64,000 nucleotides of DNA from Verrucomicrobiia bacterium. Lineage in GTDB: Bacteria > Verrucomicrobiota > Verrucomicrobiia > Limisphaerales > DSYF01. The stretch covers positions 1-64,000 of the forward strand of contig DASTWL010000061.1 of NCBI GenBank assembly GCA_035765895.1, read 5' to 3'. The notes under the pieces are model-generated. The model was not told where the DNA came from, searched no databases, and saw only the letters and a list, made by a program, of their open reading frames with translations. Position numbers and translations under genes: made by a program. Position 1 is the stretch's first letter; the number at the start of each line of letters is the position of its first letter. Shown here one piece after another: positions 6,037-52,505 of this stretch.

Positions 6037-6067
6037 TGGAAAAGCATTCTTGGTGCGTCTTTCAACC

Positions 6068-7786: not shown

Positions 7787-7791
7787 TAAGA

Positions 7792-33532: not shown

Positions 33533-34179
33533 TGAATACCGGAAAACCCCTGCTCATTCTTGGCACCGGCCCGTTTGCCGTGGAAATTGCCGACCTCGCC
33601 TCCGAAATCCCCGGCGTGACGGTTGCCGGTTTCGTGGAAAACCTGGATCGTGCCCGTTGCGCGCAGCCGCTGGATGGCCGGCCGGTGTATTGGATCGATG
33701 AACTTGGTCCGCGCGTGGTCACGCACCAGTTTGTGTGCGGGCTGGGCACCACGCACCGCGGCCGGTTTACCGCGCAGGTGGCCGCGCTCGGCGGCGAATT
33801 CGCCACCCTGGTGCATCCCAGCGCCCGGGTCTCCACGCGCAGCACGCTGGGCCCGGGAACGATTCTCAACGTCGGCGTCATCATTGCGTCGCACACCCGG
33901 TTGGGCGCGCACGTTTCGGTGAACCGCGGCGCCACCATCGGCCACCACACGCAGATTGATGATTTTGTCACCGTCGGCCCGGGTGTGAATCTGGCGGGCA
34001 GTTGTCACGTCGGCCGGGCGGTGTATGTGGGCATCGGCGCCACCATCATCGACCACAAGGTCATCGGCGCGCAGTCCGTCGTGGGGGCCGGCGCGGTGGT
34101 GACCGAGGACGTGCCGGAACGCGTGCTCGTGGTGGGCGTGCCGGCCAAAATTGTGAAGCGAGACATCGCAGGCAAATAA
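33529..34179 (+). CDS. PglD/NeuD-family sugar O- or N-acetyltransferase
   Basis: A 216-residue left-handed beta-helix enzyme. The N-terminal Rossmann-like domain opens LLILGTGPFAVEIADLA. Hexapeptide repeats run from about residue 105 to 205 (LGPGTILNVGVIIASHTRLG, HTQIDDFVTVGPG, VGIGATIIDHKVIG, VVGAGAVVTEDVP), ending VVGVPAKIVKR. Relatives acetylate UDP-4-amino-sugars with acetyl-CoA in bacillosamine or related pathways. The expected aminotransferase partner immediately upstream is only a stub, so the amino-sugar substrate must come from another locus or this pathway is dead. The start ATG overlaps the stub's stop. Confidence 0.9.
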   Translation: MMNTGKPLLILGTGPFAVEIADLASEIPGVTVAGFVENLDRARCAQPLDGRPVYWIDELGPRVVTHQFVCGLGTTHRGRFTAQVAALGGEFATLVHPSARVSTRSTLGPGTILNVGVIIASHTRLGAHVSVNRGATIGHHTQIDDFVTVGPGVNLAGSCHVGRAVYVGIGATIIDHKVIGAQSVVGAGAVVTEDVPERVLVVGVPAKIVKRDIAGK

Positions 34180-34187
34180 TCCGCGCC

Positions 34188-35081
34188 ATGAAACTGGACA
34201 AGCTCATCATCAACGCCGCGCTCACCGGCATGGTGCCGCAGAAGCGGGACAACCCGCACACGCCCATTGCCCCCGCGGAAATCATCGCCGATGCCCGGCG
34301 CTGTCACGCCGCGGGCGCGAGCATCATTCACGTCCACGCCCGCGACGCCTCGGGCCGGCCCGACTGGCACAAGGAGGCGTATGCCGAAATCATCACCGGC
34401 ATTCGTGCCGCGTGCCCGGGCCTCCTGATTTCCGCCACCACGAGCGGGCGCACGGACAATTCGTTTGCCTGCCGGTCGGACGTGCTCGACCTGACGGGCG
34501 ACGCGAAGCCGGACTTTGCCTCGCTGACCCTCGGCTCGCTGAACTTTCCGAACCAGGCATCGGTCAATGAGCCCAGGATGATTCAGGCCCTGGCTGAAAA
34601 AATGCAGCAGCGCGGCATTATTCCCGAACTCGAGCTGTTCGAGCTGGGCATGGCCGACTACGCGCGCCGGCTGATTCAACTTGGGCGGTTGCAGCCGCCG
34701 TTCTACGCCAACGTGCTGCTTGGCTCCCTGGGCACGCTGGCGGCCACGCCGGACAATCTTGTCACGCTCGTGCGCGCGCTGCCGACCGGCACCACGTGGT
34801 CCGCCGCGGGCATCGGCCGCTTCCAATTTTACGTCAACAGCATGGCCATCACCATGGGCGGTCACGTGCGGGTCGGGCTGGAGGACAACCTCTGGTTTGA
34901 CGCCGCCCGCACGGAGCTGGCGACGAATGTGAAGTTGATCGAGCGCCTGGTGAAGCTGGCCCAATGCGCGGGGCGCGACATCGCCTCGCCGGCGGAGGCC
35001 CGCGCGTTGATTGGCCTGCCGGCCCCGGCGGAAGCCACCACCCTTCGCTTCGACGTGACAACTCCGCCCGTCCGCTGCTAA
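34188..35081 (+). CDS. BKACE-family beta-keto acid cleavage enzyme (DUF849)
   Basis: A 297-residue TIM-barrel protein with the metal-binding H48-V-H50-A-R-D block (IIHVHARD) and DNPHTPIAPAEI, as in 3-keto-5-aminohexanoate cleavage enzymes, which condense a beta-keto acid with acetyl-CoA to give acetoacetate and a CoA ester. The substrate varies widely within the family and is not predictable here. The gene lies 8 bases after the acetyltransferase stop and 9 before the kinase, an unusual place for this enzyme; lysine-fermentation partners are absent. ATG at 34188 is chosen because homology begins at the first residues (KLDKLIINAALTG). Confidence 0.88.
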   Translation: MKLDKLIINAALTGMVPQKRDNPHTPIAPAEIIADARRCHAAGASIIHVHARDASGRPDWHKEAYAEIITGIRAACPGLLISATTSGRTDNSFACRSDVLDLTGDAKPDFASLTLGSLNFPNQASVNEPRMIQALAEKMQQRGIIPELELFELGMADYARRLIQLGRLQPPFYANVLLGSLGTLAATPDNLVTLVRALPTGTTWSAAGIGRFQFYVNSMAITMGGHVRVGLEDNLWFDAARTELATNVKLIERLVKLAQCAGRDIASPAEARALIGLPAPAEATTLRFDVTTPPVRC

Positions 35082-35090
35082 TCAATCGCC

Positions 35091-36623
35091 ATGCGCGAAC
35101 TCCTCATCGGCATTGACAGCGGCACGCAGTCCACCAAGGCCCTGGTCGTGGACGCGAACACAGGCAGGGTGCTCGGCGCGGGCGCGGCGAAATACGATTT
35201 ACTGCCCGGCCTCCCGCCCGGCGCGAAGGAACAGCACCCGGAGACGTGGCGCCGCGCCACGGCCGCCGCAGTCAAGGCTGCGTTAAAGGCGGCCAAAGCC
35301 CGCCCCGCCGAAGTCAAGGCCATGGGTGTCAGCGGCCAGCAGCACGGCTTTGTGCCGCTCGATGCCGCGGGCGAAGTCATCCGCCCGGCCAAACTCTGGT
35401 GCGACACCGCCACGAGCGCCGAGTGCGATGCAATCACCGCGCGGCTCGGCGGGCCGAAGAAAACCATCGCGGCGCTGGGCAACGTCGTGTTGCCCGGTTT
35501 CACCGCCTCGAAAATTCTCTGGCTGAAACGGCGCGAGCCGAAAAACTTCACCCGGCTCGCCACCGTGCTCCTGCCGCATGACTACCTGAACTTCTGGCTG
35601 ACCGGCGAACGCGTGATGGAGTATGGCGACGCCAGCGGCACCGCGCTGTTCGATGTGCGCCGCCGCCAATGGTGCGCCGCCGCGCTGCAGGCAATTGACG
35701 CAAGCCTCGTTGATAAACTGCCACCCTTGATTTCCAGCGATCAGCCCGCGGGCCTGCTGCGTCCGGCCACGGCGCGCGAACTGGGGCTGAACCCCGGCGT
35801 GCTGGTCAGCGCCGGGGGCGGCGACAACATGATGGGCGCCATCGGCACCGGCAACACCCGGCCCGGCATCGTCACCGCCAGCTTCGGCACGAGCGGAACG
35901 ATTTACGCCTGCGCGGACCGGCCGGTGGTCGATCCGGCCGGGGAAATCGCGGCGTTTTGCGATTCCACGAACCGCTGGCTGCCGTTGCTGTGCACCATGA
36001 ACGTGACCGTGGCGACGGAGATGGTGCGGAAGGATTTTGGGCTCGACCACGCGGCGTTGGAGAAAATGGCGGCGAAAGCGCCGGCCGGCTGCGACGGCTT
36101 GTTCCTCCTGCCGTATCTCGAAGGCGAGCGCACGCCGAACGTGCCCGACGGCACAGGCGTGTATCTCGGTGTCAACCCGCGCACCTTCACGGCGCCTCAC
36201 TTCGCCCGGGCCACGATGGAAGGCGTAACACTGGGGATGAATTACGGCCTGCGCCGGCTGGCGCAACTCGGCGTCAAGGCGAAGCAAATTCGCGCCACGG
36301 GCGGCGGTGCGAACTCCCGGTTCTGGCGCCAGATCATGGCGGACGTCTTCAACGCGCCGGTCGTCACCTTGAAAGTTGGCGAAGGCGCGGCCTACGGGGC
36401 GGCGTTGCAGGCGTTGTGGTGCTGGAAACTCCAATCCGGCGAACGCGTGCAGATCGAGGAGATTACGGATGCGTTCGTCACGTTGAACCGCGCGGAAACA
36501 ACGCAACCGAAGGCGGCGAATGTCCGGTGCTACGCGGCCTTGCAGGCGCTGCAGGATGAAGCGTCGCTCTCCCTGCGGGGTGTGTTTGGGCGGCAGCGGC
36601 AGTTTACCTGGAAGCGCGCATGA
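35091..36623 (+). CDS. xylB: FGGY-family carbohydrate kinase, xylulokinase-like
   Basis: A 510-residue kinase of the actin-like fold. The N-terminal phosphate motif is GIDSGTQSTKALVVD. GVSGQQHGFVPLD is the signature of xylulokinases, and the catalytic Asp lies in GGGDNMMGAIGTG. ATP-site motifs are ASFGTSGTIYA and ATGGGANSRFWRQ. It probably phosphorylates D-xylulose or a related ketose to feed the pentose phosphate pathway, but no xylose isomerase is nearby, so another substrate is possible. It overlaps slyX by an ATGA junction and is in the same operon as BKACE. Confidence 0.88.
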   Translation: MRELLIGIDSGTQSTKALVVDANTGRVLGAGAAKYDLLPGLPPGAKEQHPETWRRATAAAVKAALKAAKARPAEVKAMGVSGQQHGFVPLDAAGEVIRPAKLWCDTATSAECDAITARLGGPKKTIAALGNVVLPGFTASKILWLKRREPKNFTRLATVLLPHDYLNFWLTGERVMEYGDASGTALFDVRRRQWCAAALQAIDASLVDKLPPLISSDQPAGLLRPATARELGLNPGVLVSAGGGDNMMGAIGTGNTRPGIVTASFGTSGTIYACADRPVVDPAGEIAAFCDSTNRWLPLLCTMNVTVATEMVRKDFGLDHAALEKMAAKAPAGCDGLFLLPYLEGERTPNVPDGTGVYLGVNPRTFTAPHFARATMEGVTLGMNYGLRRLAQLGVKAKQIRATGGGANSRFWRQIMADVFNAPVVTLKVGEGAAYGAALQALWCWKLQSGERVQIEEITDAFVTLNRAETTQPKAANVRCYAALQALQDEASLSLRGVFGRQRQFTWKRA

Positions 36624-36905: not shown

Positions 36906-37475
36906 ATGAACCTGGCTGGACTCACGTTAATCTTCGCATTGGCCTTGCCGGCGTTGGCGCAGACCAACTCGGCGGTGGAAACGGATTCCTCCCACGCCGC
37001 CGCGCCGACACATCAAACGCATGACGCTGCGGTCCTTCGCGCGGAGCAAATCCGGGCGGATTGCATTGCCGGTCGTCGTTGCATCTGCGGCAAGATTATG
37101 AAAATTCTACCCGAAGGACTGGTGGTGGAGAGTGGTTACACCAATCTTTTGCGTGAGCCGTTGACGCGTTCCTGGCTCGTGCCGGGCACGGTGACCACCA
37201 GCCGCCCGGAAAAGTTGGTGGAAAGCGGCATTCCCGGAACGCCCTGCGTCGGCACGGTGTTGCTGACGGACTATCCCAAATCACGAAAGCTGAAGCCGAA
37301 GGCATACGATTACGTGATTATTGAAGGTTACCCCACCGGGCAGCATACCTATCATTCCGTGGGCACGGTGCAGAAGACGGTGCGGCGATTTTCCGCGCAA
37401 CTTGCCACGGCGGTTGCCTGGCATCTGGCCGAAGGCAGCACCAACGCTTCGCCCTCGAGTGCAGGATCAAAGTGA
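36906..37475 (+). CDS. Secreted protein of unknown function
   Basis: A 189-residue protein with a clear signal peptide (LAGLTLIFALALPALAQ). The mature part has several Cys (DCIAGRRCICGK) and a compact beta-rich core (GKIMKILPEGLVVESGYT, GTVLLTDYPKS, DYVIIEGYPTG). I do not recognise the family. The stop overlaps the GTG start of the diheme cytochrome gene, so it is likely co-translated and may be its periplasmic partner. ATG at 36906 is chosen over an in-frame upstream start because it begins at the signal peptide. Confidence 0.8.
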   Translation: MNLAGLTLIFALALPALAQTNSAVETDSSHAAAPTHQTHDAAVLRAEQIRADCIAGRRCICGKIMKILPEGLVVESGYTNLLREPLTRSWLVPGTVTTSRPEKLVESGIPGTPCVGTVLLTDYPKSRKLKPKAYDYVIIEGYPTGQHTYHSVGTVQKTVRRFSAQLATAVAWHLAEGSTNASPSSAGSK

Positions 37476-38854
37476 CGCGCGCCTTTCGAATTGTTGGAGC
37501 AAAGTTTCTGCCCCGTCTGGCTACCATTGCGGGAATGGGCGTGCTCGCAACTCGCGCCGTCCACCCATGTCTGGCTGACGCCGTTGCCCCCCGCTCGTGG
37601 GAGGTTCAACCCCGGTCACGCCCGTTTCTCGCCATGCCGGCCACGGCCGCCTCAACCTTGCCGGCACTGTTGTCTCAAACTGGAGCGTTCAAGGATGTCC
37701 GGCATCTTGTCCCGGCCGATGGATTACTCCCGTATGAGCTCATCGTCCCATTCTGGTCGGACGGTGCGGAGAAAGCGCGCTGGGTTTCCGTGCCTGCCGG
37801 CGCGACGATAAAATTTTCGCCGACGGGCGAATGGAGCTTTCCGAAAGGAACGGTCTTTGTAAAGACGTTCACTTTCATTACCAACGAACTGCAGCCCGAG
37901 TCGATTCGCCGGCTGGAGACGCGGTTGCTGGTGTGCGATGCGGATGGCGGCGTTTACGGGGCCGTTTACAAATGGCGCCCCGACAACAGTGACGCTGAGT
38001 TGCTGGAAACGAATTTGATGGAAACGATCACCATTATAACCGCGACCGGCGTGCGAACCCAGTCGTGGTATTACCCCAGCCGCAAGGATTGCCTGACCTG
38101 CCACACGGACAACGCCGGGCATGTCCTGGGGGTAAAAACCCGGCAGTTGAACCGGGAGTATGCCTACCCTGCCGGGGTCACTGAAAATGAACTGCTGAGG
38201 TGGAGCCGGCTTGGCCTGTTCGATACCAACCTGCACAAAGCCGACGTAAAAGCGTTGCCGACGCTGGCCCGTCCCGATGACCTGGCCCGCAGCCTGGAAG
38301 ATCGCGCGCGTTCCTACCTCGATGCGAATTGCGCCAATTGCCATCGGCCGAAGGGCACCGTTGCCTATTTCGACGCGCGCTACGACACGCCATTGGCAAA
38401 GCAGGGCCTGATTGACGGTCCGGTGCTGATTGACGAACGCATCGACAGCGCGCGGGTCATGGCGCCGAACGACATCTGGCGTTCCATTCTTTACCTGCGG
38501 GCGAACACGACCGAAGCCTTCAAGATGCCGCCGCTGGCCCGCAACGCGATCGATGAAAAGGGCATGGCCTTGCTGCGACAATGGATCGAAAGCCTTCCGG
38601 GGCCGCCGGTGCTGCCGCCGCCGGAAATCTCGCCGGCCGGCGGCAGTCTGACGAACGCCGTGGAGGTCACATTGAGCAGCGTGCCGGGTGCGACCATCCG
38701 TTACACAATCGACGGCACGGTGCCGACGAAGTCGGATTTGCTCTATGACAAACCCATTCGCCTGACCGGGCCAACCATTCTGCGCGCCCGGGCGTTCAAG
38801 ACGGGCTTCACCAAGAGCATTACCACCCAGCAGTTCTTTCTCACCGGCCAGTAG
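37472..38854 (+). CDS. Exported diheme c-type cytochrome (SO2930/HNE_0200-like) with chitobiase-type C-terminal domain
   Basis: A 460-residue protein starting at GTG 37472, which overlaps the upstream stop as GTGA. Core motifs are PFWSDGAEKARWVSVP, FPKGTVFVKTF and RRLETRLLV. Two haem sites are present: CLTCH at C207 and CANCH at C287. A chitobiase C-terminal-type module (TIRYTIDGTVPT, DKPIRLTGPTIL) closes the protein. It is closely related to residues 1637-2057 of the giant protein at 40142. Proteins of this family are periplasmic or surface electron carriers of unknown partner. The N-terminus is atypical as a signal peptide, with a hydrophobic stretch at about 12-27. Confidence 0.85.
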   Translation: MTRAFRIVGAKFLPRLATIAGMGVLATRAVHPCLADAVAPRSWEVQPRSRPFLAMPATAASTLPALLSQTGAFKDVRHLVPADGLLPYELIVPFWSDGAEKARWVSVPAGATIKFSPTGEWSFPKGTVFVKTFTFITNELQPESIRRLETRLLVCDADGGVYGAVYKWRPDNSDAELLETNLMETITIITATGVRTQSWYYPSRKDCLTCHTDNAGHVLGVKTRQLNREYAYPAGVTENELLRWSRLGLFDTNLHKADVKALPTLARPDDLARSLEDRARSYLDANCANCHRPKGTVAYFDARYDTPLAKQGLIDGPVLIDERIDSARVMAPNDIWRSILYLRANTTEAFKMPPLARNAIDEKGMALLRQWIESLPGPPVLPPPEISPAGGSLTNAVEVTLSSVPGATIRYTIDGTVPTKSDLLYDKPIRLTGPTILRARAFKTGFTKSITTQQFFLTGQ

Positions 38855-39944
38855 CCGTTTGACTCACTTCGCGCCCGGCAACCACGACGATACCCCACGG
38901 ACTGCCGGGTGATTTGACGCGCGTAATTTCCTGGTCAGTTGAAAGGTCCACCACCGAGACATCGTCCGATGGGCCGTTGGCGGCGAACAAATATTTGTTG
39001 TCCGGTGACAGGGCGATGCCCCACGGACGCTTTCCAACGGGGATCGTGTGCAGCACCTCGAACGTATTGGCATCAACCACACACACCGTGCCGCCCCGCC
39101 CGGTGCTGACATAAATCTTCTTCCCATCGGATGAAACCACGACGCATTGCGGACGCGCGTGCGGCGGCAAGGTGATTACCCGGGCGAGTTTTTGCGCCGC
39201 GGTGTCGATGACGTTCAACTCGCCTACGGATTCAGATGGAATGAACGCGCGCGAGCCGTCCGGCAGGAACGCCACGCTGCGGGGACGTGGATGAACGTTG
39301 AGGTGACCGATGACCTTGAACGTCTGCGCGTCGATGGCGAACACATCGCCCGCCGTCTCGCAGGTGACGTAGAAAAATTTCCCGTCCGGACTGGCGCCGA
39401 CGCCTTCCGGCTCACGGCTCACCGGGATGAACGTGACCACCTTGCCGGTGGCGGCATCAAGCACGGTGGCGGCACTCACGTCTTCGTTGGCAATGTAGAT
39501 GCGCGAACCGTCCGGGCTGAGACAGAATTGTTCGGGGTCGGAGCCGGCGGGAATTTTACGCAGGAATTTTTTCTGCCCGGCGTCCACGAGGGCGATGCCG
39601 TCGGCTGATTTGTCCGCCTTGGCCTCCTTGTCATCATCATCGTGGCCTTTTTCGAAAATGGGGTTGCCATTCGCATCCAATTTCGGCGGGGGTTCGATGG
39701 GAGTGCCGCTTAACGCGACATAAACCGTCTTTCCATCCGGACTGGCATGGATGCCCCGTGGCCGCTTGCCCACGGGAATGGTGGTGGCGACCTTGAAATC
39801 CGCTCCGTCGATGACCGTCAGAGTGCCGGCCTTTTCATTGGAAACAAAAACCGAATAGGCGCCGGCACAGTGCGCGGATGGGCTCCAGAAAAACGCGCTG
39901 CCGGCCAGCGCGGCGATCCATGCTGAGTAAAGGGAAATTCTCAT
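38841..39944 (-). CDS. Exported YVTN-type seven-blade beta-propeller protein
   Basis: A 367-residue protein with a signal peptide ending near PSAHCAG. Repeated blades read VFVSNEKAGTLTVIDG, IPVGKRPRGIHASPDGKTVYV, FCLSPDGSRIYIANED, VGASPDGKFFYVTCET, VSSDGKKIYVSTGRGG and LSPDNKYLFAANGPSD. A loop between blades 1 and 2 is acidic and Lys-rich (HDDDDKEAKADK). Such propellers are secreted scaffold or surface-layer proteins, sometimes tied to quinoprotein or cytochrome pathways. The 3' end overlaps the diheme cytochrome gene by 14 bases. The start faces the giant gene across a gap of 197 bases. Confidence 0.9.
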   Translation of the reverse strand: MRISLYSAWIAALAGSAFFWSPSAHCAGAYSVFVSNEKAGTLTVIDGADFKVATTIPVGKRPRGIHASPDGKTVYVALSGTPIEPPPKLDANGNPIFEKGHDDDDKEAKADKSADGIALVDAGQKKFLRKIPAGSDPEQFCLSPDGSRIYIANEDVSAATVLDAATGKVVTFIPVSREPEGVGASPDGKFFYVTCETAGDVFAIDAQTFKVIGHLNVHPRPRSVAFLPDGSRAFIPSESVGELNVIDTAAQKLARVITLPPHARPQCVVVSSDGKKIYVSTGRGGTVCVVDANTFEVLHTIPVGKRPWGIALSPDNKYLFAANGPSDDVSVVDLSTDQEITRVKSPGSPWGIVVVAGREVSQTATGR

Positions 39945-40141: not shown

Positions 40142-43100
40142 ATGAAAAACCATTTGGGCTTCATCATCAGGGGGTTCGCGGTCATCAGCGTCGTTCTCGC
40201 AACCCTGTCCCAGCTTTGCCCTGAAGCCAAAGCCCAGACGCTGCGGTTGCGTTTTGCCTTCGAAGACAGCGGCTCGACCACGACCGATTCCGCGGCGGGA
40301 GTTACGTTGAAGCTGGTCAACGGCAGCACGGCGACGGATTTGCACGGGACTGCCGGATCCGGCGTGGCCGGGATTGGCAAAGCCTTGGACTTTTTCTCCG
40401 GGACTTACAACAACGCAGCGTCGCCGATCGCTTTTGCGACCAACAACGGAGCACTGAACTTTGGGCCGATTTCCAATTTTACCCTGACCCAGTGGATCAA
40501 ACCTGGCGTGGTTTCCCAGTATCCGCGCTTCTTTGAAATTGGACCCAATACGTTCACGGTCGAGACGGCGGCGAATTCGTTTGCCTACCTGCTGAACAAT
40601 GGACCCGGCTTTCAAGTCTTCCTGAACGGGGTTCAGCAGTTGACCACGGGAACGGTTCCCGGCTTGTCCGCGGGAAGTTGGAGCTTTATTGCGATTACTT
40701 ACGATGGCAGCACGCTGAATCTGTATGCTGGTTCGGAGACCAGTCCCGTGGCGCTTGTCACGAGCGCATCGGTTTCAGGGCAGACCATCAATCTGGGCAG
40801 CTCCGGCACCGTTTTTTTGGGCAATCGGTTGAGTGACCAGCTTCGGGCATTCCAAGGATTGCTGGATGACACACGGTTTTATACGGATGCGGCGGATGTG
40901 AACTTTCTGGAAAGCGTGCGGCTGTCTGCTTTGAGCGACCCGTATGCGGGGCCGACGACAATTTCACCATCGGCAACAGCCATTCTTGGCAGCAATGTAA
41001 CCATCAGTGCCATCGCCGATGGCACTCCGCCGATTACTTTTCGGTGGTTCTTCACCAACACGAACGGCGTCACCAGCCTGGTTTCCGGCGCCACCACGAG
41101 CACGTTTACGCTCACCAATGTGCAATATGCCAATGCCGGAAATTATTTTTTGGTGGTCTCCAACAACCCGGGCGGCACCCCAAAGGTCTTCACCAACACA
41201 CCTGCTGCCTTGACGGTGACGGCGGAGGTGCCGCCGGTCGTGCTGGTGGATTTCGGCATCAATGCGCCGACGCCGGGGATTAACGACGCTTTTCAGTTCA
41301 GCACGGCCGGCCAGGCAAACCAGCCGGATGGACTTAATTACTATACCGACAACCAGGTCAGTTACGGCTCGGGCGAACCCGGACAGACATTTTTTACGCC
41401 CGACGGCTCGGCCGGTTTCCTTTTGACCTCGCTGGCCTTTAAAACCGGGGGCGGCACCAGTTCGGGGACCGGCACCCCGCAGGGGTATTTGCTGCACATT
41501 TATTCGGTGAGCAATGGCGCCGCCACCGTGCTCGCCACTTATAGTGCGACGAACTTCACTTTTTCGGATGGTGACTGGTTGCAGTGGACCAACCTCGACT
41601 TGTCGCTCATGCCCAATTCGACTTATGGCTATTCCTTCGGAAAAGTCTCCGCGGCAGTTGGGGGTTGGGATCAGCTGGGCAATGCCAGTGGCAATCCTTA
41701 TCCGAATGGTGAACTGGGCATTTTCCCGGTGGCTGGCGGCAACATCACCTTTGCCAGCAGCCATGACTACGATGGCGTTTTTGATGTGGGATTGACTTCG
41801 CTCGGACCTCCGTCGCCAGCGACGGTCGCAAACAAGCCCGCTACGACCATCCAAGGGACGGCCGCAACCTTGAACGGAACCATTGTTGCGAGCGGAGGCA
41901 GCCTTCCGTATGTCACGATCTACTATGGCGCGACCGACGGCGGGACGAATGCCGCCGCCTGGTCCAACGATGTCGCTCTGGGCGCACAGTTGGGGGACTT
42001 TTCGACGATGGTGACCGGCCTGACGACCAACACGACGTATTACTACACCGCCCAGGCTTCCAACACGGCCGGCATTTCGTGGGCCGCGCCGGCCTCCAGC
42101 TTTACCACGGCGGCGACGGTGAACCCACCCACCGTAACCAACCTGCCAGCAATGCTCGTCGGCGCGACCACAGTCACCTTGAACGGTCAGGTGCTGGATA
42201 CGGGCAATGAGTGGCCGATCATCACGATTTATTACGGGACCACCGATGGCGGCGCCAATCCGGCCGCTTGGTCCAATCACATTTCCCTGCCGGCGCAGGG
42301 AGGAGTTTTCAATTTGCAGGTGGCCGGGCTGTCAGAAGGCGCGACTTATTACTTTGCCGCTTACGCGTCCAACTCGGCTGGATCCTCATGGGGTGGTCCA
42401 TCGCAGTCGTTCACCACGCTGGCAGTCAAACACATCCCGGTGCTGACGTATCATTACGACAACACCCGCCAGGGATTGAACGCCAACGAAACCCTGCTGA
42501 CTCCGGCCAATGTGAACACCGCCAGCTTCGGAAAACTGTTCACCTATCCGGTGGATGGCTATGTGTATGCCCAGCCGCTGATCATGACCAATCTGACCAT
42601 TCCCGGCAAAGGCACGCACAACGTGCTGTTCGTCCTCACCATGCACGACACGGTTTATGCCTTTGACGCCGACAGCAATGGCGGGGCCGATGGGGGCTTA
42701 TTGTGGAAAACCAACGTCGGCATTTCGGCCGTCTCGCCTTCCACCGAATACGGTCTGCGTTACCACGCTCAAGGCAATACGGACGTGGTGCCGGAGGAGG
42801 GAATGGTGGGCACGCCGGTCATTGACGCGGCAACGGGCACGCTTTACCTGGATGCCTTCACGCGGGAAGTCGTGCCGGGCGTTTCCACCAACTACTATCA
42901 TCGTATTCACGCACTGGATGTGACGACCGGCAACGAGCGGCCCTACGGCCCGGTGGTCGTCGCCGGTTCCGTGCCGGGCACCGGCGTGAATGGCAGTGGC
43001 GGCGTATCCGGAGCCGGCACCGGCGCCACGATTACGGACGGCGGCCCCACCGTAACGTTTTCGGCCATTCAACATTGCGCCCGCCCGGCGCTGACGCTGG

Positions 43101-46100
43101 CCGGTGGCGTTTTGTATGTGGCTTACGGCAGCCACGATGACACCGATCCATATCACGGGTGGGTTTTTGGCTACAACCCCGCCAATCTTGCTTTGGTGAG
43201 CATCTACTGCACCTCGCCCAACGCAACACTGGCGGCGTTTGGTTCCCATGCAGGCGAAGGTGCGATTTGGATGGCAGGCAACGGCCTTTGCGCGGATGCC
43301 AGCAACAATCTCTATTTCATGACTGGCAACGGGGCGTTCAGCCAGAACACCAACGGTGGCGATTACGGCGACAGTTTCGTCAAGCTTTCCACAACCGCGA
43401 ACCAGCTCAGCGCAACCGATTATTTCACGCCCTACAACCAGGCCTCTTTGCAGAGCAGCGACGCGGATTTGGGGTCGGGTGGCGCCATGCTGCTGCCGGA
43501 CGCAGCCGGCAGTGCGGCCCATCCGCACTTGATCGTGGGGGCCGGCAAGCAGGGAAAGATTTATCTCGTGGATCGCGACAACATGGGACATTACCAGGCG
43601 GGCAGCGACAGTCAGATTGTGCAGTCCATCGGCGGCGCCGTGGGCGGGTGCTGGTGTTCGCCCGCCTACTTCAACAACTGGATTTATTATCAAGGCAACG
43701 GTGATGTGATGAAGGCGTTCTTTATCACCAATGGGAGCATCGCCACCACGCCGGTTTCAAAATCCACCACCAGTTTTGGTTTTCCCGGCCAGACGCCAAC
43801 CATCTCCGCGGACGGCTCGAGCAACGGCATCGCGTGGGTCATTGATGCCAGCGCGTATCTGAGCAGCGGCCCGGCAGTGTTGCATGCCTACAACGCAACC
43901 AACCTTGCCGACGAACTGTATAACTCCAGCCAGAATCCTTCGCGCGACTATCCGGGCGCAGGCGTGAAAATGGTTCCACCTGTTATTGCCGGCGGCAAGG
44001 TGTATGTCGGCGCACAATACGCCGTATCCGTCTTTGGCAACGCCGTTTTTCTGACCGCTCCGACCATCTCCCCCAACGGCGGCCCCTTTACCAATTCGGT
44101 GATGGTGACGCTGTCGGACGCCACGGCGGGCGCGTCCATCTTTTATACGCTGGACGGCACAACCCCCACCACGGATTCGACGCCATACACCGGGCCATTC
44201 GCACTGACGAGCAATGCTTTGGTGCAGGCCATTGCCGCCGCGCCCGGCGCGGTGAACAGCGCCGTCACCAGCGCATCGTTCAACAACACCGCCGCCAGTG
44301 GCACTGGCACCGGCTTGCAGGCCGAATATTTTGCCAATCACACCAGCGCCGCTCCGTTCACCGGTTCGCCAGCGCTCGTGCAGACGAATGCGACCGTCAA
44401 CTTTAACTGGGGCACAATCGGTCCGGCTCCCAGTGTGGGCGCGACCAATTTCACCGTGCGCTGGACCGGCTGCGTGCAACCTCGGTTCTCTGAAAGTTAC
44501 ACCTTCACCACCACGGCGGACGATGGCGTGCGCCTGTATGTAAACGGGCAGTTGTTGATTGATGACTGGACCGACAAGGCCAGCGCCACGACGAGGAGCA
44601 ATTCCATCGCGCTCGCGGCGCAGCAGCTTTACAACATCGAACTGGATTATTACCAGAAGACCAACAACGCCTCGGTGACGCTTTCCTGGAACAGTCCTTC
44701 GACGCCGAACGGTGTTGTTCCGCAGACCCAGTTGTATCCTTATTCGAACCCGGCTCCGGCCGTTGTCCTGACCGCACCAGCCGACGGTTCGGGTTATACC
44801 GCGCCAGCCAGCGTGACCATTTCTGCCGATGCGGACGCGCCATACAACCCGGTCAGCGTCGTCAGCTTTTACGCCAACGGTGCGTATTTGGGCAGCGTCA
44901 GCAATGCGCCCTACACCCTCACCACGACTGGATTGGCGGCCGCCAGTTACGCCTTAACCGCCGTGGCGGTGGACGGCAGCGGCTTGAGCAGCACGTCTGC
45001 CGTGGTGAACGTTTCTGTGGGCGCCGGCAGCGGCCAGCCTTATGGACTCACCACCCGCCTGCCAATGAACGCTTTCCTGAACATGCCGACGACAGCGGCG
45101 GGATCGATGCCGGCGCTGCTGTCACAGGTGGGCATTTTCAGCAACACGCCCGGCATGACGCCGGTGACGGCATTGATTCCTTATACTCCCAATACGCCAC
45201 TCTGGTCGGACGGTGCACTGAAGACGCGTTACTTCGCCGTGCCCAACGACGGCGGAACCATCACACCGGATGAGCAAATTGATTTTGCGCCGACCGGTTC
45301 GTGGTCTTTCCCGGCCGGGACGGTATTTGTGAAAACCTTTGAACTGAATACCGACACCACGAATCCCAATGTCAAACGCCGGCTCGAAACCCGCCTGCTG
45401 GTGCGCGACATCAACGGCCAGGTTTACGGTGTGACCTACAAATGGCGTGCCGACAACAGTGATGCCGACCTGCTCCCCGGCAGCTTGAACGAGGACATCC
45501 TCATTACCAACGCCACCGGCGTGACCACGCAAACGTGGTATTATCCAAGCCGGGCGGACTGTCTCACCTGCCACACGCCGGTGGCCAATTACGTGCTGGG
45601 AGTGAATACCCGTCAGTTGAACGGCGATGAGACGTATCCATCAACCGGGGTGACCGACAATCAGTTGCGCACCTTGAACCGGCTCGGCCTGTTCAACGCC
45701 GCGTTTGATGAGGCGATCATCACGAACTTTGCCAGAATGGCCGCCCTGACCAACCTTTCGGCCTCGCTCGAGACCCGGGTGCGTTCCTATCTCGACGCCA
45801 ACTGCGTGCAATGTCATCAGCCCGGAGGAATCGGGCCGACGTTTGACGCGCGCTTCGACCTGCCGCTGGCCAGTCAAAACATCATCAACGGCGGACTGGA
45901 TTCGGACGGCTTCGCCATGGTGGTGCCCAAAGACATCTGGCGCTCGGAAATCCATCAGCGGATGGACACGACCAACAACACCATCAAGATGCCGCCGCTC
46001 GCGCGCAATTTGATTGATACCAATGCCGTGCAGGTCCTCACCGACTGGATCAACAGTCTGCCGGGGGTTCCCGCGCTGGCCCCGCCCGTCCTCACGCCCA

Positions 46101-46528
46101 ACGGCGGCAACTTCGTGGCTTCGGTGAATGTTGCGGCGCAACAACCGGACACCAATGCGGTGATTTACTACACGCTGGATGGCTCGAAGCCGACGACGAA
46201 CTCGCTGCTTTACACCGGGCCGTTCACCTTGCTGGACAGCGCCACGGTCTCGGCCAGTTCCTTCCGCACCGGTTACGTCAACAGCGTCACGACCAGCGCG
46301 CTGTTCACGGTTGAACCGCTGCATTTTGTTGCGGAAGAACTCACGAACAATATGTTCCGTTTGACCTTCAGTGGCACGGCGGGCGGCAATTACGTGCTTG
46401 AAGCGAGCACGAATCTTGTCACTTGGACGCCCATTGCCACCAACATGCCGGACACGAACGTGTTCGATTTGTTCGATCCAGGAGCGACCAATTATCCTTA
46501 CCGGTTCTATCGGGTGCGGCGCCAGTAA
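40142..46528 (+). CDS. Giant secreted multidomain protein: LamG, Ig, quinoprotein-like propeller, PA14 and diheme cytochrome
   Basis: A 2128-residue exported protein (signal near residue 31, EAKAQT). Approximate order: LamG-type jelly roll 35-255; Ig-like 270-362; a beta-rich domain 366-560; two FN3-like domains 561-760; a PQQ/quinoprotein-like propeller 763-1303 (YDNTRQGLNANETLL, VYAFDADSNG, GKIYLVDRDN); chitobiase C-terminal domain 1307-1382; PA14 1390-1533 (TTADDGVRLYVNGQLLIDDW); Ig-like 1539-1627; diheme cytochrome 1637-1978 with CLTCH at C1807 and CVQCH at C1888; second chitobiase-type domain 1980-2057; and a C-terminal STNLVTW...FYRV element. It is probably anchored at the cell surface. 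A covalent propeller-cytochrome pairing suggests extracellular oxidation or electron transfer; substrate and PQQ use are unproven. Confidence 0.92.
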   Translation: MKNHLGFIIRGFAVISVVLATLSQLCPEAKAQTLRLRFAFEDSGSTTTDSAAGVTLKLVNGSTATDLHGTAGSGVAGIGKALDFFSGTYNNAASPIAFATNNGALNFGPISNFTLTQWIKPGVVSQYPRFFEIGPNTFTVETAANSFAYLLNNGPGFQVFLNGVQQLTTGTVPGLSAGSWSFIAITYDGSTLNLYAGSETSPVALVTSASVSGQTINLGSSGTVFLGNRLSDQLRAFQGLLDDTRFYTDAADVNFLESVRLSALSDPYAGPTTISPSATAILGSNVTISAIADGTPPITFRWFFTNTNGVTSLVSGATTSTFTLTNVQYANAGNYFLVVSNNPGGTPKVFTNTPAALTVTAEVPPVVLVDFGINAPTPGINDAFQFSTAGQANQPDGLNYYTDNQVSYGSGEPGQTFFTPDGSAGFLLTSLAFKTGGGTSSGTGTPQGYLLHIYSVSNGAATVLATYSATNFTFSDGDWLQWTNLDLSLMPNSTYGYSFGKVSAAVGGWDQLGNASGNPYPNGELGIFPVAGGNITFASSHDYDGVFDVGLTSLGPPSPATVANKPATTIQGTAATLNGTIVASGGSLPYVTIYYGATDGGTNAAAWSNDVALGAQLGDFSTMVTGLTTNTTYYYTAQASNTAGISWAAPASSFTTAATVNPPTVTNLPAMLVGATTVTLNGQVLDTGNEWPIITIYYGTTDGGANPAAWSNHISLPAQGGVFNLQVAGLSEGATYYFAAYASNSAGSSWGGPSQSFTTLAVKHIPVLTYHYDNTRQGLNANETLLTPANVNTASFGKLFTYPVDGYVYAQPLIMTNLTIPGKGTHNVLFVLTMHDTVYAFDADSNGGADGGLLWKTNVGISAVSPSTEYGLRYHAQGNTDVVPEEGMVGTPVIDAATGTLYLDAFTREVVPGVSTNYYHRIHALDVTTGNERPYGPVVVAGSVPGTGVNGSGGVSGAGTGATITDGGPTVTFSAIQHCARPALTLAGGVLYVAYGSHDDTDPYHGWVFGYNPANLALVSIYCTSPNATLAAFGSHAGEGAIWMAGNGLCADASNNLYFMTGNGAFSQNTNGGDYGDSFVKLSTTANQLSATDYFTPYNQASLQSSDADLGSGGAMLLPDAAGSAAHPHLIVGAGKQGKIYLVDRDNMGHYQAGSDSQIVQSIGGAVGGCWCSPAYFNNWIYYQGNGDVMKAFFITNGSIATTPVSKSTTSFGFPGQTPTISADGSSNGIAWVIDASAYLSSGPAVLHAYNATNLADELYNSSQNPSRDYPGAGVKMVPPVIAGGKVYVGAQYAVSVFGNAVFLTAPTISPNGGPFTNSVMVTLSDATAGASIFYTLDGTTPTTDSTPYTGPFALTSNALVQAIAAAPGAVNSAVTSASFNNTAASGTGTGLQAEYFANHTSAAPFTGSPALVQTNATVNFNWGTIGPAPSVGATNFTVRWTGCVQPRFSESYTFTTTADDGVRLYVNGQLLIDDWTDKASATTRSNSIALAAQQLYNIELDYYQKTNNASVTLSWNSPSTPNGVVPQTQLYPYSNPAPAVVLTAPADGSGYTAPASVTISADADAPYNPVSVVSFYANGAYLGSVSNAPYTLTTTGLAAASYALTAVAVDGSGLSSTSAVVNVSVGAGSGQPYGLTTRLPMNAFLNMPTTAAGSMPALLSQVGIFSNTPGMTPVTALIPYTPNTPLWSDGALKTRYFAVPNDGGTITPDEQIDFAPTGSWSFPAGTVFVKTFELNTDTTNPNVKRRLETRLLVRDINGQVYGVTYKWRADNSDADLLPGSLNEDILITNATGVTTQTWYYPSRADCLTCHTPVANYVLGVNTRQLNGDETYPSTGVTDNQLRTLNRLGLFNAAFDEAIITNFARMAALTNLSASLETRVRSYLDANCVQCHQPGGIGPTFDARFDLPLASQNIINGGLDSDGFAMVVPKDIWRSEIHQRMDTTNNTIKMPPLARNLIDTNAVQVLTDWINSLPGVPALAPPVLTPNGGNFVASVNVAAQQPDTNAVIYYTLDGSKPTTNSLLYTGPFTLLDSATVSASSFRTGYVNSVTTSALFTVEPLHFVAEELTNNMFRLTFSGTAGGNYVLEASTNLVTWTPIATNMPDTNVFDLFDPGATNYPYRFYRVRRQ

Positions 46529-48182: not shown

Positions 48183-51100
48183 ATGACAACGCCCTACCGT
48201 CCTGCCGTTTTCACCACAAAAAACGACAACTCAATCGGCGAGCCCATCGACGGCAGCACCGGAGACCCTGTTAATGATTATGTCTACGGCGGGTTGGTCA
48301 TTGAAGGTTATTTCAGCGAGGATCCGGTTATTAAATATGCCCGATTCCTTCACTTCATAGTCTCTCCCGGAATTGACGTTGAAGGGGGCAGCACCATTAC
48401 GGTGAAGCACTGCGAGTTTGAGGATTGTAGCCAAGCCATCTATGTGCCCTCTACGTCATATTACCCATTGCCGGTATCGGTTCAGAACTGCCTGTTCAGC
48501 GGATGCGGAACTGCGGTTTACCACAACGGTTATGCCCAAGTCATCGGAGTAAACCTGACGATTGACAATTGCAGCCAAGTGGTGGACCAGTCTTGGCCGG
48601 AAACATATCTTACGAACTGTGTGCTGACAGATGTTTCGGACGTCAGCGCCATAGCCGGCACGGCATACACCGTCGTGACCAACGCATCGGGGGTTTATCA
48701 AACTGCAGGGGCGGGCAATTATTATCTCGCCAACGGCAGTTCCTATCGCGATTGGGGAACGACAAATATCGATCCCGCATTGGTGGCAGAAATCGCACAG
48801 ATGACAACCTACCCGCCCACAGTCTATGCCAATACCAACTTTGCGTCCTCGACCACCCTCAGTCCCCACGTCGAGTGCGATACAAATTCGATGGATATTG
48901 GCTACCATTATGCCGTGCTCGATTATGCGCTTTCAGCGGCGACAAATTCGAGCACCTTGACGCTGACCAATGGCGTGGTCGTGGGCCTCTTTGGCACCAA
49001 CGGTATCACGATGGCGGGCGGTGCCTCATTGGAAAGCGTTGGAACTCCATTGGCACTTAACCGCTTGGTTCATTGTCAGTTGGTTCAAGAACAGAGCCCC
49101 ACCGGTGTGCCTGGTGCCATGGTTTGGTTGAGTGGGACAGGGACAACTGTTGATCTGCGTTCAACCGTGTTGGGGGCCGTCTCGCCGGTTTATTATGTCT
49201 ACGGCTCCTACCTTCCGAATAATGTGTCATTGCGCGATTGTGAGCTTTATGGAGGGAGCGTAGCTCTCTCGGTTTATGGCGGCGGCACGGTTAGTGTGCG
49301 GAACAACCTGTTTCGCAGAGTCAACACGGGAGCCTATTACGCCGGAAACTTGGATATGGACCAAAACCTGTTTTGGGGTGGGTCTGTGGCATTTCAAGAC
49401 TGGCCTTCCACGTATGGCGTATATGACAATGCATTTGACGGAACCGACCTCTCCAATCTGGGCTTGCTGAGCGGACAGCATCACAACGCCTTTATCAATA
49501 CAAGTGGTTATTCCAGCACGAACAATGGCAATCTGACCTTGTCAAATTTCACCTATTCAGCCGGCGCTTTAGGAGACTTTTATCAGTCTGCAAACAGCCC
49601 ACTGCACAACGCAGGCAGCACCAATGCGGGTGTTTTGGGCTTCTACCATTACACGACGACCACCAATCAGGTGAAGGAAACCAACTCGGTGGTGGACATC
49701 GGTTACCATTACGTTTCGCTGGATACCGCCACCGGCCTGCCGATTGACTCGGATCTCGATGGCATTCCGGATTATCTCGACCCGGATTCAGACGGCGATT
49801 CCCTGCCCGACGATTGGGAGATTCACTGGTTTGGAAACCTCGACGCGACCGCATCGGACGATCCGGATGGCGACTGGCTCACGAATTACGAGGAATACCT
49901 CGCGGGCAGCAATCCGTCCGATGTGATGGTGGTCGCTTGGGGCATCGCGAATGGGGGAGCGCTCGCCGTGCCGACTAACGCACAAAACGTGGTGTCTGTG
50001 GACGGCAATTTTGAGGGGAGCCTGGCACTGCGCGCGGATGGTTCGGTGGTCGGTTGGGGGACAGGTGCTGCATCACTGCCGAATTGGACCAACATAGTCC
50101 AATTGTCGGCCGATTGGGATCAAGTGGCGGTCGTGGAATCCGACGGCATCGTTTCTGTGCTGAACACAAACGATGACCTCCCCCCGGGCGATTTGACCAA
50201 TGCCGTGCAGGTTGCAGCAGGTGACGGGTTCTGTGTTGCATTGCGTGCGAGTGGCACCGTTACTGCGTGGGGGGCGAACGATGCCGGGCAATGTGATGTG
50301 CCAGCAGGGCTGGCGAGCGCGAAGGCTGTCGCGGCCGGCTGGAGCCACGCAGTGGCATTGCTTCAGGACGGCAGCGTGGCCGTATGGGGGGACAATGGTT
50401 ATGGGCAGACGAACAAGCCCTCGGGACTAACTAATATCACCGCTGTCGCGGCCGGCGGTTTGCATTCACTTGCGCTCAGAGCCGACGGAACGGTTATTGC
50501 ATGGGGCACCGGTTGGACCAACAGTGGATCGTTGTTCAATTTTGGGCAGGCGATGGTTCCGTCCGGCCTGTCCAATGTGGTCTCCATTTCCGCTGGCGGT
50601 TATCATAGTGCAGCTCTTCGGTCTGACGGAACGGTGGTAGTCTGGGGCGATCTGGGCAGTATCGCCATTCCTGATGTTCAGGGACATATCGTCGCGATCG
50701 GATCGGGCGACATGCATATCCTGGCTTTGCGGGGTGGCCGGTTGACGCCGTTGATCGTCAGTCAGCCAACGGACCAATTTGCGCCAGCAGGCTATACGGT
50801 GGAGTTTACAGCCGTGGGCACGGGGCTGGCGGGCGTTCACTATCAATGGCAGTTTAATGGCACAAACATCGCAGGCGCAACCAATGGGACCCTAACCTTG
50901 CTCAACGTCTCTTCCAACGATGAAGGCAGCTATCGGGCCATTGTCTCGACGGGCGCGGGGTCGGTGCTGACATCCGATGCCACCTTCACGCTGGTGCGGC
51001 CCCCGGTCATCGCGAGCACCGCCCCGGCCAATCCGGGTGAGGTATGGATCACCAATTTCTTCACGCTGAATGTTGCGGCTACGGCGGCGGGCCAGTCGCA

Positions 51101-52505
51101 ATTTCCCCTGAGCTACCAGTGGCAGTTCAATGGCACCAACCTCGCCTCCGGAACCTCATCCAATTATTACGTCTATTTCTCACCGACCAATGAAGGTGAA
51201 TTCACCGTCGGCGTCAGCAACGCGGCGGGGTCCACCAACGCCGGTCCGTGGCGGATTCACCTGCTGCAACCCGGCGGGGTGGCGGCTTGGGGCGCCAATG
51301 ATTATGGCGAATGTGATAGCCCGTATAATCTGACAAATGCTATTTCGATTGCGGCGGGCGAACTCCACTCGGTGGCCGTGCGCGAGGACGGCAGCGTGGT
51401 GCAATGGGGGTATCACTGGGCCGACGTTCCCGCCGATTTGACCAACGCCGTGCAAGTCGCCGCCGGTTATGAGCACAGCCTCGCGTTACGCGCCGATGGC
51501 ACCGTGACCGCCTGGGGCGATGCCGGCGCGCCGAACTGGGTACCCACCAATCTGTCCGGCGTCAAAGCCGTTTCGGCCGGGGAATATCACAACCTCGCGC
51601 TGCTGACCAATGGCAGCGTGGTCGCCTGGGGCACGTCGCTTTGGGGCGTCACGAACGTCCCCGCCAACCTGACCAACGTGACGGCGATCTCCGCCGGGAC
51701 GCAGCACAATCTGGCGTTGAAGGCGGACGGGACGGTGGTGGCGTGGGGCTGGAACGACGTGGGGCAGACGAACGTGCCCGCCGGCTTGAGCAACGTGATC
51801 GCGATTGCGGCCGGCGGAATGCACAGCCTGGCGCTCAAATCGGATGGCACCGTGGTGGGCTGGGGCTACGGCAACGACGGCCAATGCACCCCACCTGCCG
51901 ATCTCACCAACGCGATGGCCATTGCGGCGGGCTGGCGGCACAGTGTGGCGCTGCGCGAGGATGGCACCGTGGTCGGCTGGGGCAGCGACAGCGCCGGGCA
52001 ATGCGACGTGCCGGCGACCCTGCACACCGTGAAACTCATTGCGGCGGGCGGCGACCACACGCTGGCGGCGGTGTTTTCGCCGTATCTGCGTTACCCGGGC
52101 AAAGCAGAATCGTTGGTGGACAACCTGCTGCACATGCTGACCAGCCGAACTAACGGCAATGGGAATGCCTACTTCGATTTGCCGCCGTATGATGTTGCAG
52201 GCCGTTTGCACGATTCGTGGGGAGGAACCAACTCGCCGACCATGCAGACAAACTTTTGGTTGCGAGACGTGACCAATATTTACACCTGCTCGGTGGCGGC
52301 GCTGCAACCAATTTGGCAAAGCTTAACGAACACAAACACGGCACACTATGTTTGCACAGCGATCTCGCCTCGCCATGCCATTACCGCAGGCCACGTAGGA
52401 AGCTTTTTCCAGCCCGGCCAGTTTCGGGGATTGAGACTACACAAAGCGCCAAAGCATTCACGTTTTTTGTGCAAACCCGCCGGATTGCTTGGTGATACAA
52501 AGTAG
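48183..52505 (+). CDS. C-terminal part of the frameshifted protein: beta-helix, TSP3-like, RCC1 and Ig domains, truncated protease-like end
   Basis: The frame is open upstream to about 48129; ATG 48183 is only the first Met. Order by residues from 48183: right-handed beta-helix 1-520 (VKHCEFEDCSQAIYV, SVQNCLFSGCGTAVY); calcium-binding TSP3-like repeats about 522-575 (DSDLDGIPDYLDPDSDGD); RCC1 repeats 580-860 (AAGWSHAVALLQDGSVAVWG); two Ig-like domains 860-1030; a second RCC1 set 1033-1295; and a tail with AISPRHAITAGHVGSFFQPG (about 1393), resembling the catalytic-His segment of trypsin-like proteases. The protein stops 34 residues later, before Asp and Ser motifs, so the protease domain is truncated. 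An extracellular or adhesive role is likely. Confidence 0.82.
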   Translation: MTTPYRPAVFTTKNDNSIGEPIDGSTGDPVNDYVYGGLVIEGYFSEDPVIKYARFLHFIVSPGIDVEGGSTITVKHCEFEDCSQAIYVPSTSYYPLPVSVQNCLFSGCGTAVYHNGYAQVIGVNLTIDNCSQVVDQSWPETYLTNCVLTDVSDVSAIAGTAYTVVTNASGVYQTAGAGNYYLANGSSYRDWGTTNIDPALVAEIAQMTTYPPTVYANTNFASSTTLSPHVECDTNSMDIGYHYAVLDYALSAATNSSTLTLTNGVVVGLFGTNGITMAGGASLESVGTPLALNRLVHCQLVQEQSPTGVPGAMVWLSGTGTTVDLRSTVLGAVSPVYYVYGSYLPNNVSLRDCELYGGSVALSVYGGGTVSVRNNLFRRVNTGAYYAGNLDMDQNLFWGGSVAFQDWPSTYGVYDNAFDGTDLSNLGLLSGQHHNAFINTSGYSSTNNGNLTLSNFTYSAGALGDFYQSANSPLHNAGSTNAGVLGFYHYTTTTNQVKETNSVVDIGYHYVSLDTATGLPIDSDLDGIPDYLDPDSDGDSLPDDWEIHWFGNLDATASDDPDGDWLTNYEEYLAGSNPSDVMVVAWGIANGGALAVPTNAQNVVSVDGNFEGSLALRADGSVVGWGTGAASLPNWTNIVQLSADWDQVAVVESDGIVSVLNTNDDLPPGDLTNAVQVAAGDGFCVALRASGTVTAWGANDAGQCDVPAGLASAKAVAAGWSHAVALLQDGSVAVWGDNGYGQTNKPSGLTNITAVAAGGLHSLALRADGTVIAWGTGWTNSGSLFNFGQAMVPSGLSNVVSISAGGYHSAALRSDGTVVVWGDLGSIAIPDVQGHIVAIGSGDMHILALRGGRLTPLIVSQPTDQFAPAGYTVEFTAVGTGLAGVHYQWQFNGTNIAGATNGTLTLLNVSSNDEGSYRAIVSTGAGSVLTSDATFTLVRPPVIASTAPANPGEVWITNFFTLNVAATAAGQSQFPLSYQWQFNGTNLASGTSSNYYVYFSPTNEGEFTVGVSNAAGSTNAGPWRIHLLQPGGVAAWGANDYGECDSPYNLTNAISIAAGELHSVAVREDGSVVQWGYHWADVPADLTNAVQVAAGYEHSLALRADGTVTAWGDAGAPNWVPTNLSGVKAVSAGEYHNLALLTNGSVVAWGTSLWGVTNVPANLTNVTAISAGTQHNLALKADGTVVAWGWNDVGQTNVPAGLSNVIAIAAGGMHSLALKSDGTVVGWGYGNDGQCTPPADLTNAMAIAAGWRHSVALREDGTVVGWGSDSAGQCDVPATLHTVKLIAAGGDHTLAAVFSPYLRYPGKAESLVDNLLHMLTSRTNGNGNAYFDLPPYDVAGRLHDSWGGTNSPTMQTNFWLRDVTNIYTCSVAALQPIWQSLTNTNTAHYVCTAISPRHAITAGHVGSFFQPGQFRGLRLHKAPKHSRFLCKPAGLLGDTK

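Follow-up and report, generated by a model that had tools for sequence, protein, structure and literature searches.

Within the window, the 64,000-nucleotide stretch of DNA that was analysed, lies an open reading frame of 2128 residues with an ATG start and zero internal stops. It is preceded by three smaller genes, and its domains and those genes are placed as follows:

36906-37475, forward strand: small exported protein, no family assigned
37472-38854, forward strand: free-standing diheme cytochrome with CHB_HEX, 460 residues, a gene of the conserved module
38841-39944, reverse strand: YVTN beta-propeller
40142-46528, forward strand: fused quinoprotein-like propeller / diheme cytochrome protein
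40460-40891, forward strand: Laminin_G_3 (ConA-like) domain, residues 107-250 (Pfam, E 5.3e-12)
40958-41164, forward strand: Ig domain (Ig_3), residues 273-341 (Pfam)
42434-44077, forward strand: quinoprotein-like beta-propeller, residues 765-1312 (paralogues, AlphaFold2 model, profile comparison)
44072-44272, forward strand: first CHB_HEX_C_1 / Fn3_assoc domain, residues 1311-1377 (Pfam)
44312-44704, forward strand: PA14 domain, residues 1391-1521 (Pfam)
44756-44962, forward strand: Big_7 Ig-like domain, residues 1539-1607 (Pfam)
45062-46096, forward strand: diheme c-type cytochrome domain, TIGR03806-related (match to residues 1657-1973)
46085-46282, forward strand: second CHB_HEX_C_1 domain, residues ~1982-2047, boundaries approximate (two Pfam stretches and sequence)
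46283-46525, forward strand: C-terminal module of ~80 residues, common to many proteins of the source genome

The source organism is a soil- or bog-type Verrucomicrobium. From the N- to the C-terminus, the fused protein harbors a signal peptide, a LamG domain, an Ig domain, the propeller of ~548 residues, CHB_HEX, PA14, Big_7, the diheme c-type cytochrome, a second CHB_HEX and a tail; CHB_HEX_C_1 is an Ig-like module, its name notwithstanding. Residues 1-~32 resemble a Sec signal peptide (MKNHLGFIIRGFAVISVVLATLSQLCPEAKAQ), as judged by eye, and the product is probably a very large exported protein. The earlier note had placed a propeller, PA14, chitobiase-type domains and a two-haem cytochrome in one 2128-residue chain, and this composition is borne out by the uninterrupted frame, by the Pfam and TIGR03806 matches and, for the propeller, by model and profiles; its span, 42430-46310, corresponds to residues ~764-2056, from the propeller through the second CHB_HEX. 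The free-standing cytochrome-chitobiase paralogue that it had reported at 37472 is also present, and is 49% identical to residues 1607-2057 of the fused protein.

A domain-architecture comparison has revealed the cytochrome fusion in 41 of 106 related propeller ORFs, from dozens of related genomes, and all taxonomically placed carriers are Verrucomicrobiota. Most fusions share the order propeller-CHB_HEX-PA14-Big_7-cytochrome, with the first CHB_HEX_C_1 / Fn3_assoc domain present in 39/40 fused proteins, Big_7 in 39/40 and PA14, between propeller and cytochrome, in 37/40. Chance or chimera is ruled out because the same fused architecture occurs in 41 ORFs from many assemblies; the unusual size of the protein, and nothing else, would suggest a chimera or assembly artefact, which the uninterrupted frame also makes vanishingly improbable. 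This fixed design, recurring as it does, probably marks a real family of putative outward-facing oxidation enzymes.

The propeller (residues 765-1312) gives no significant Pfam match; PQQ_2 reaches E 0.18 in this member and at best 0.00031 within the propeller family. PF07995 (GSDH/AA12) has no Pfam match in the fused protein, TIGR03075 has none at 1e-10 in the source genome, and a PDB sequence search with the propeller profile found no relative. Profile comparison (hhalign) of 100 propellers with 8-bladed quinoprotein alcohol dehydrogenases (ADHs) gave a probability of 91% (E 1e-6), whereas two other propeller families reached 0.4-2.1% and the reversed and shuffled controls 0.1-0.2%; the value against GSDH was 2.1%. 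On these profiles, the propeller is homologous specifically to the 8-bladed quinoprotein ADHs. The AlphaFold2 model (pLDDT 81, pTM 0.86) matches 8-bladed folds in Foldseek, its closest being BamB, quinohaemoprotein ADH, PedH, MDH and tetrathionate hydrolase. The positions that match the ADH pocket form a quartet:

43139-43141, forward strand: D1000, invariant (100/100); offset by one alignment column from the Glu that ligates the metal in quinoprotein ADHs
43328-43330, forward strand: N1063, 99/100; in the alignment it falls on the GTGN-motif Asn of the PQQ site
43466-43468, forward strand: D1109, 100/100; assigned to the catalytic Asp from its distance to the Lys, which follows 27 residues later
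43547-43549, forward strand: K1136, 100/100; in the alignment it falls on the Lys that binds PQQ in quinohaemoprotein ADHs (APKNG motif)

The full Asp-Asn-Asp-Lys quartet is kept in 99/100 family members, its positions are among the most conserved of the whole propeller family, and PDB 1kv9 has the same Asn-Asp and Asp-Lys spacings, 45 and 27, that are most frequent in this family. The choice of D1109 over D1107 as catalytic Asp was made from this spacing and not from the automatic alignment. A lanthanide reading, in which D1107-x-D1109 would resemble the Asp-x-Asp of XoxF, was rejected: gap-free spacing places the catalytic Asp at D1109, which is followed at +2 by Gly in 93/100 members, and therefore no lanthanide claim is made. 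No Cys column is conserved at >=85% in the propeller alignment, so that the vicinal disulphide of many quinoprotein ADHs is absent.

It could be argued that the propeller has kept the fold and no longer uses PQQ, serving as another enzyme, as in tetrathionate hydrolase, or as a scaffold, as in BamB, while the cytochrome does the redox work. BamB binds no cofactor, and the Foldseek matches to BamB and tetrathionate hydrolase are as strong as those to quinoprotein ADHs; the PQQ Pfam repeat is not significant here, and neither PqqC nor PqqE was found above threshold in the source genome (96% complete), both also being absent in most relatives. One 'propeller' near pqqC/pqqE, located at the edge of a contig, is not the same protein. 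A scaffold, however, has no reason to keep the residues that match the PQQ pocket of ADHs top-conserved and at the typical spacing, and the cytochrome also partners a second PQQ-type propeller family. PQQ scavenging, moreover, is widespread (PMC12124388), and loss of PQQ use is rather unlikely. As a candidate for PQQ import, the source genome has one TonB receptor, whose closest PDB entries are mostly siderophore receptors.

The match of the cytochrome domain to TIGR03806 ('SO2930 family diheme c-type cytochrome') spans almost the whole model (E 2.2e-60), although the score of 204.5 bits stays below the curated cut-off of 313.3. The literature library that was searched had no paper on this family or on verrucomicrobial GSDH-cytochrome fusions. 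The haem sites of the domain are:

45560-45574, forward strand: haem-1 motif CLTCH, residues 1807-1811 (motif and alignment)
45803-45817, forward strand: haem-2 motif CVQCH, residues 1888-1892 (motif and alignment)
45989-45991, forward strand: M1950, in a KMPP motif, invariant in 78/78

Both CXXCH motifs are present in 78/78 aligned cytochrome sequences, and cytochrome c assembly genes are present in the source genome. Haem sites lacking axial ligands, together with a propeller lacking a cofactor pocket, would, according to the earlier note, have spoken against its proposal. Haem 2 has its His and, as likely distal ligand, the invariant M1950, but for haem 1 no invariant distal His or Met beyond CXXCH was found anywhere in the domain (78 sequences). 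Since Y1681, E1749, T1750, W1768 and W1799 are nonetheless near-invariant, haem 1 might be five-coordinate and reactive, the protein being mainly a cytochrome for extracellular electron transfer or small molecules that uses propeller and PA14 for attachment. The adjoining free-standing copy would fit this, as would a resemblance to Cytochrome_P460 (PF16694), which 34/44 members show at a weak, non-significant level (E 0.0034 at best). The P460 fold for the haem-1 half was rejected, as hhalign gave 9.7% over 14 columns, and the fold search with the cytochrome model (pLDDT 92, pTM 0.89) found no solved relative. What also argues against a mainly cytochrome function, which we regard as improbable, is the company that the domain keeps. 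In 35/35 further complete ORFs examined, it is fused to GSDH, another PQQ-type propeller, most often ~10 residues behind it, and the source genome itself has one such fusion. Because none of the complete ORFs examined has the fused domain without a quinoprotein-type propeller, it appears to accept electrons from these propellers.

The reading that we prefer, with a probability of roughly 60%, is that of an exported quinohaemoprotein-type dehydrogenase which belongs to a new and remote branch of the superfamily of 8-bladed PQQ propellers and passes electrons to two haems. The propeller would bind PQQ and a metal ion via Asn1063, Asp1109 and Lys1136, with Asp1000 replacing the usual metal-ligand Glu, and would oxidise an alcohol or aldose group. 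The haems bound covalently in the C-terminal diheme domain would take up the electrons and hand them on to an external partner, for which the free-standing diheme cytochrome encoded nearby is a candidate. PA14 may keep the enzyme attached to a carbohydrate substrate or close to it. The export-type start is observed, and the site of action would be outside the cell. Counting against this dehydrogenase are the missing PQQ synthesis genes, the apparent change of the Ca-ligand Glu to an Asp that is off by one column, the choice between D1107 and D1109 by spacing, the lack of a Cys pair and of a PDB sequence relative, the fold matches to BamB that equal those to dehydrogenases, and the haem 1 without invariant distal ligand. 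The 'enzyme with a built-in electron outlet' of the earlier note is supported by the homology to 8-bladed dehydrogenases, the near-invariant Asn, Asp and Lys with enzyme spacing, and the constant quinoprotein-type partner; the glycan oxidation outside the cell that it had added is plausible, PA14 and LamG being soft modules that are suggestive only.

Type II quinohaemoprotein ADHs (PDB 1kv9, 1kb0, 1yiq) likewise combine a PQQ-superfamily propeller and then a c-type cytochrome in one chain, with active-site Asn, Asp and Lys at the same typical spacing. The fused protein differs from them in a propeller too distant for PDB sequence matches, in the Asp apparently replacing the metal-ligand Glu, in having no vicinal Cys pair, in its different, diheme cytochrome, and in the PA14/Ig modules in between, at ~3x the length. 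CcPDH of Coprinopsis cinerea, a fungal enzyme of similar logic (AA12 PQQ domain, cytochrome and CBM1; CAZy AA12-AA8-CBM1) that has been proven by experiment and speaks for the preferred reading, is also an exported PQQ-type propeller with cytochrome and carbohydrate-binding module (PMC4332668, PMC6881789), but AA12 has six blades and the cytochrome of CcPDH contains haem b, whereas the propeller here is related to the 8-bladed type; the GSDH-diheme fusions, which share this order, come closer. As CcPDH drives lytic polysaccharide monooxygenases (LPMOs) via its cytochrome (PMC5960967), and a bacterial c-type cytochrome domain is able to reduce LPMOs (PMC8981238), the fused protein might reduce an LPMO, but this is very improbable, as the source genome has no match to AA10 LPMOs (PF03067). 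More speculatively, and doubtful as a whole, it could be the bacterial equivalent of such fungal enzymes (AA12-cytochrome-CBM), with the 8-bladed type of PQQ propeller instead: extracellular in Verrucomicrobiota, held on polysaccharide by PA14, taking PQQ from outside, with a five-coordinate and perhaps reactive haem 1.

Verrucomicrobiota of soils, bogs and lakes have many cytochrome proteins with carbohydrate-type modules and of unknown role (PMC5615132). The PSCyt proteins of PVC bacteria are similar in that they include verrucomicrobial cytochrome proteins with LamG and PA14, for which action on carbohydrates was suggested, but they have other cytochrome families and PSD domains, and the main text of that paper does not mention PQQ or quinoproteins (PMC5615132). 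The consistent coupling of one diheme domain to two separate PQQ-type propellers gives it a concrete and testable role, namely to accept the electrons of exported quinoprotein dehydrogenases. Should these enzymes be active, they would face outwards and oxidise carbohydrates from plants or microbes, in organisms that mostly do not make PQQ, which would have a bearing on the exchange of PQQ between soil organisms.

The small exported protein at 36906 lies beside fused genes at 11/41 loci and beside unfused ones at 0/58. For the YVTN beta-propeller the figures are 7/41 and 2/58, and it comes near TIGR03866, 'PQQ-dependent catabolism-associated', with 262.7 bits against a cut-off of 287.3.

The fused gene is an intact ORF (40142-46528, + strand) encoding, by Pfam/NCBIfam annotation, LamG, Ig, the quinoprotein-like propeller, CHB_HEX, PA14, Big_7, a TIGR03806-like diheme cytochrome, CHB_HEX and a tail. 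Its N-terminus, inspected by eye, looks like a Sec signal peptide. The C-terminal module of about 80 residues (46283-46525; 'YVLEASTNLVTW...FYRV') recurs in many proteins of the same genome (well over a dozen) and is possibly a sorting or anchoring tail.

The propeller model (pLDDT 81, pTM 0.86) matches BamB, quinohaemoprotein ADH (1yiq, 8gy2), PedH, methanol dehydrogenases and tetrathionate hydrolase, so that the fold by itself cannot separate an enzyme from a scaffold; a PDB sequence search with the propeller gave no match. Profile-profile comparison can make this separation. The propeller reaches 91% probability against quinoprotein dehydrogenases; YVTN propellers score 0.4%, GSDH propellers 2.1%, and reversed or shuffled profiles 0.1-0.2%. 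This result leans on profile depth, since a small ADH profile built from two sequences yields no more than 5.5%, yet aligns the same Asn and Lys. These pairs are the GTGN Asn with N1063 and the APKNG Lys with K1136. Automatic alignment gave no clean placement of the catalytic Asp, for which spacing points to D1109: the modal distances in the family, Asn-Asp 45 (30/99) and Asp-Lys 27 (72/99), are those of PDB 1kv9 (45 and 27). D1000 lies one alignment column off the metal-ligand Glu. The roles named here for Asn, Asp, Lys and Glu are those of the solved quinoprotein enzymes. Of 100 propellers, fused and unfused together, 99 retain all four of D1000, N1063, D1109 and K1136; the vicinal disulphide is absent from the propeller family.

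The diheme domain is confidently modelled (pLDDT 92, pTM 0.89), and a fold search with this model found no solved relative. Both CXXCH motifs and M1950 are invariant across 78 diheme sequences, in which no other His or Met of the domain reaches 55% conservation. As M1950 is the only such invariant residue, haem 2 is probably His/Met-ligated, and haem 1, whose invariant CXXCH (45560-45574) has no invariant distal His/Met in this set, may be five-coordinate or ligated by another residue. Y1681, E1749, T1750, W1768 and W1799 are near-invariant.

The diheme domain is present in 39 of 58 related genomes, and stands behind a GSDH propeller in all 35 complete ORFs examined (loci L185-L219), most often after about ten residues; a 36th ORF was a fragment of 267 residues lying at the edge of its locus. 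The fused protein's own genome has such a GSDH-diheme fusion on contig C14 (G000:C14, L036:4008-8348), the GSDH part of which aligns with soluble quinoprotein glucose dehydrogenase and hedgehog-interacting protein. That a single acceptor domain is joined to PQQ-type propellers of two separate kinds is the strongest functional hint, falling short of proof because GSDH folds include non-enzymes. The built-in electron outlet proposed in the earlier note is well supported. GSDH fusions of this kind are very common in the order, and some add a third haem domain (TIGR02603), CBM9 (L207) or DUF1028 (L215).

The propeller itself is present in 9 of the 58 related genomes; a weak match in genome G022 belongs to a different protein. 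From 579 candidate stretches of the GTDB collection encoding propeller relatives, 79 loci were retained, and 41 of 106 propeller ORFs also encode the diheme cytochrome, which has two CXXCH motifs wherever it is complete. All fused loci with a recorded phylum are Verrucomicrobiota; relatives lacking the fusion come from Acidobacteriota, Rokubacteria, Binatota and Burkholderiaceae plasmids, and in Caballeronia the propeller gene follows that of a membrane PQQ glucose/quinate dehydrogenase. The spacer between propeller and cytochrome measures 324-336 residues in 32 of 40 fused proteins, among which it contains CHB_HEX in 39, Big_7 in 39 and PA14 in 37. Fused proteins show strong clustering in the propeller tree, with 11 changes versus 31.6 in shuffles, 11 being an upper figure because some 'unfused' rows run past contig ends; the fused proteins form more than one clade, and the cytochrome has therefore been gained or lost several times. 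At locus L103, the propeller ORF (5758-8622) runs into a cytochrome ORF (8264-9928) read in another frame, so that a frameshift may have broken a fused gene here.

What is observed of the fused protein is its architecture, conservation, homology and motifs. The propeller would likely bind PQQ and a metal, and electrons would likely pass from it to the diheme domain. PA14 and analogy with CcPDH make a sugar or glycan a possible substrate, and the glycan oxidation outside the cell suggested earlier is therefore a plausible candidate activity. Regarding cofactor supply, PqqC and PqqE exceed their cut-offs in only three genomes out of 58, and two of these three have the propeller; neither protein does so in the own genome, a 4.64 Mb draft that is 96% complete. 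Missing PQQ synthesis would be fatal only if scavenging were impossible; PQQ import is common among non-producers, some Verrucomicrobia included (PMC12124388), and environmental PQQ could in principle load an extracellular enzyme directly. The closest named relatives are MAGs of Verrucomicrobia subdivision 3/Limisphaerales, whose isolate names suggest palsa, bog, lake and soil.

Genes preceding and including the fused gene, in order.
36906-37475, small exported protein
37472-38854, free-standing diheme cytochrome
38841-39944, opposite strand to its neighbours, YVTN propeller
40142-46528, + strand, fused gene

The same gene order is found at L058, whose propeller is 60% identical. The small exported protein, of no known family, is specific to the surroundings of fused genes, where 11 of 41 loci have it, against 0 of 58 for unfused genes (Fisher 2.5e-5); the YVTN protein is present in 7 of 41 and 2 of 58 (Fisher 0.03), values that are optimistic because related rows are not independent. 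A pseudopilin-like (N_methyl) gene, absent beside the fused gene in the window, follows its counterpart immediately or lies close to it in nine other loci, for example at L056:10037-10852, L058:9996-10820 and L067:9978-10787. Just downstream of the fused gene, 48183-52505 encodes a 1440-residue protein in which many RCC1 repeats are combined with a beta-helix stretch and an Ig domain, and upstream of the module (34002-36623) lie genes for a beta-keto acid cleavage enzyme and a xylulokinase.
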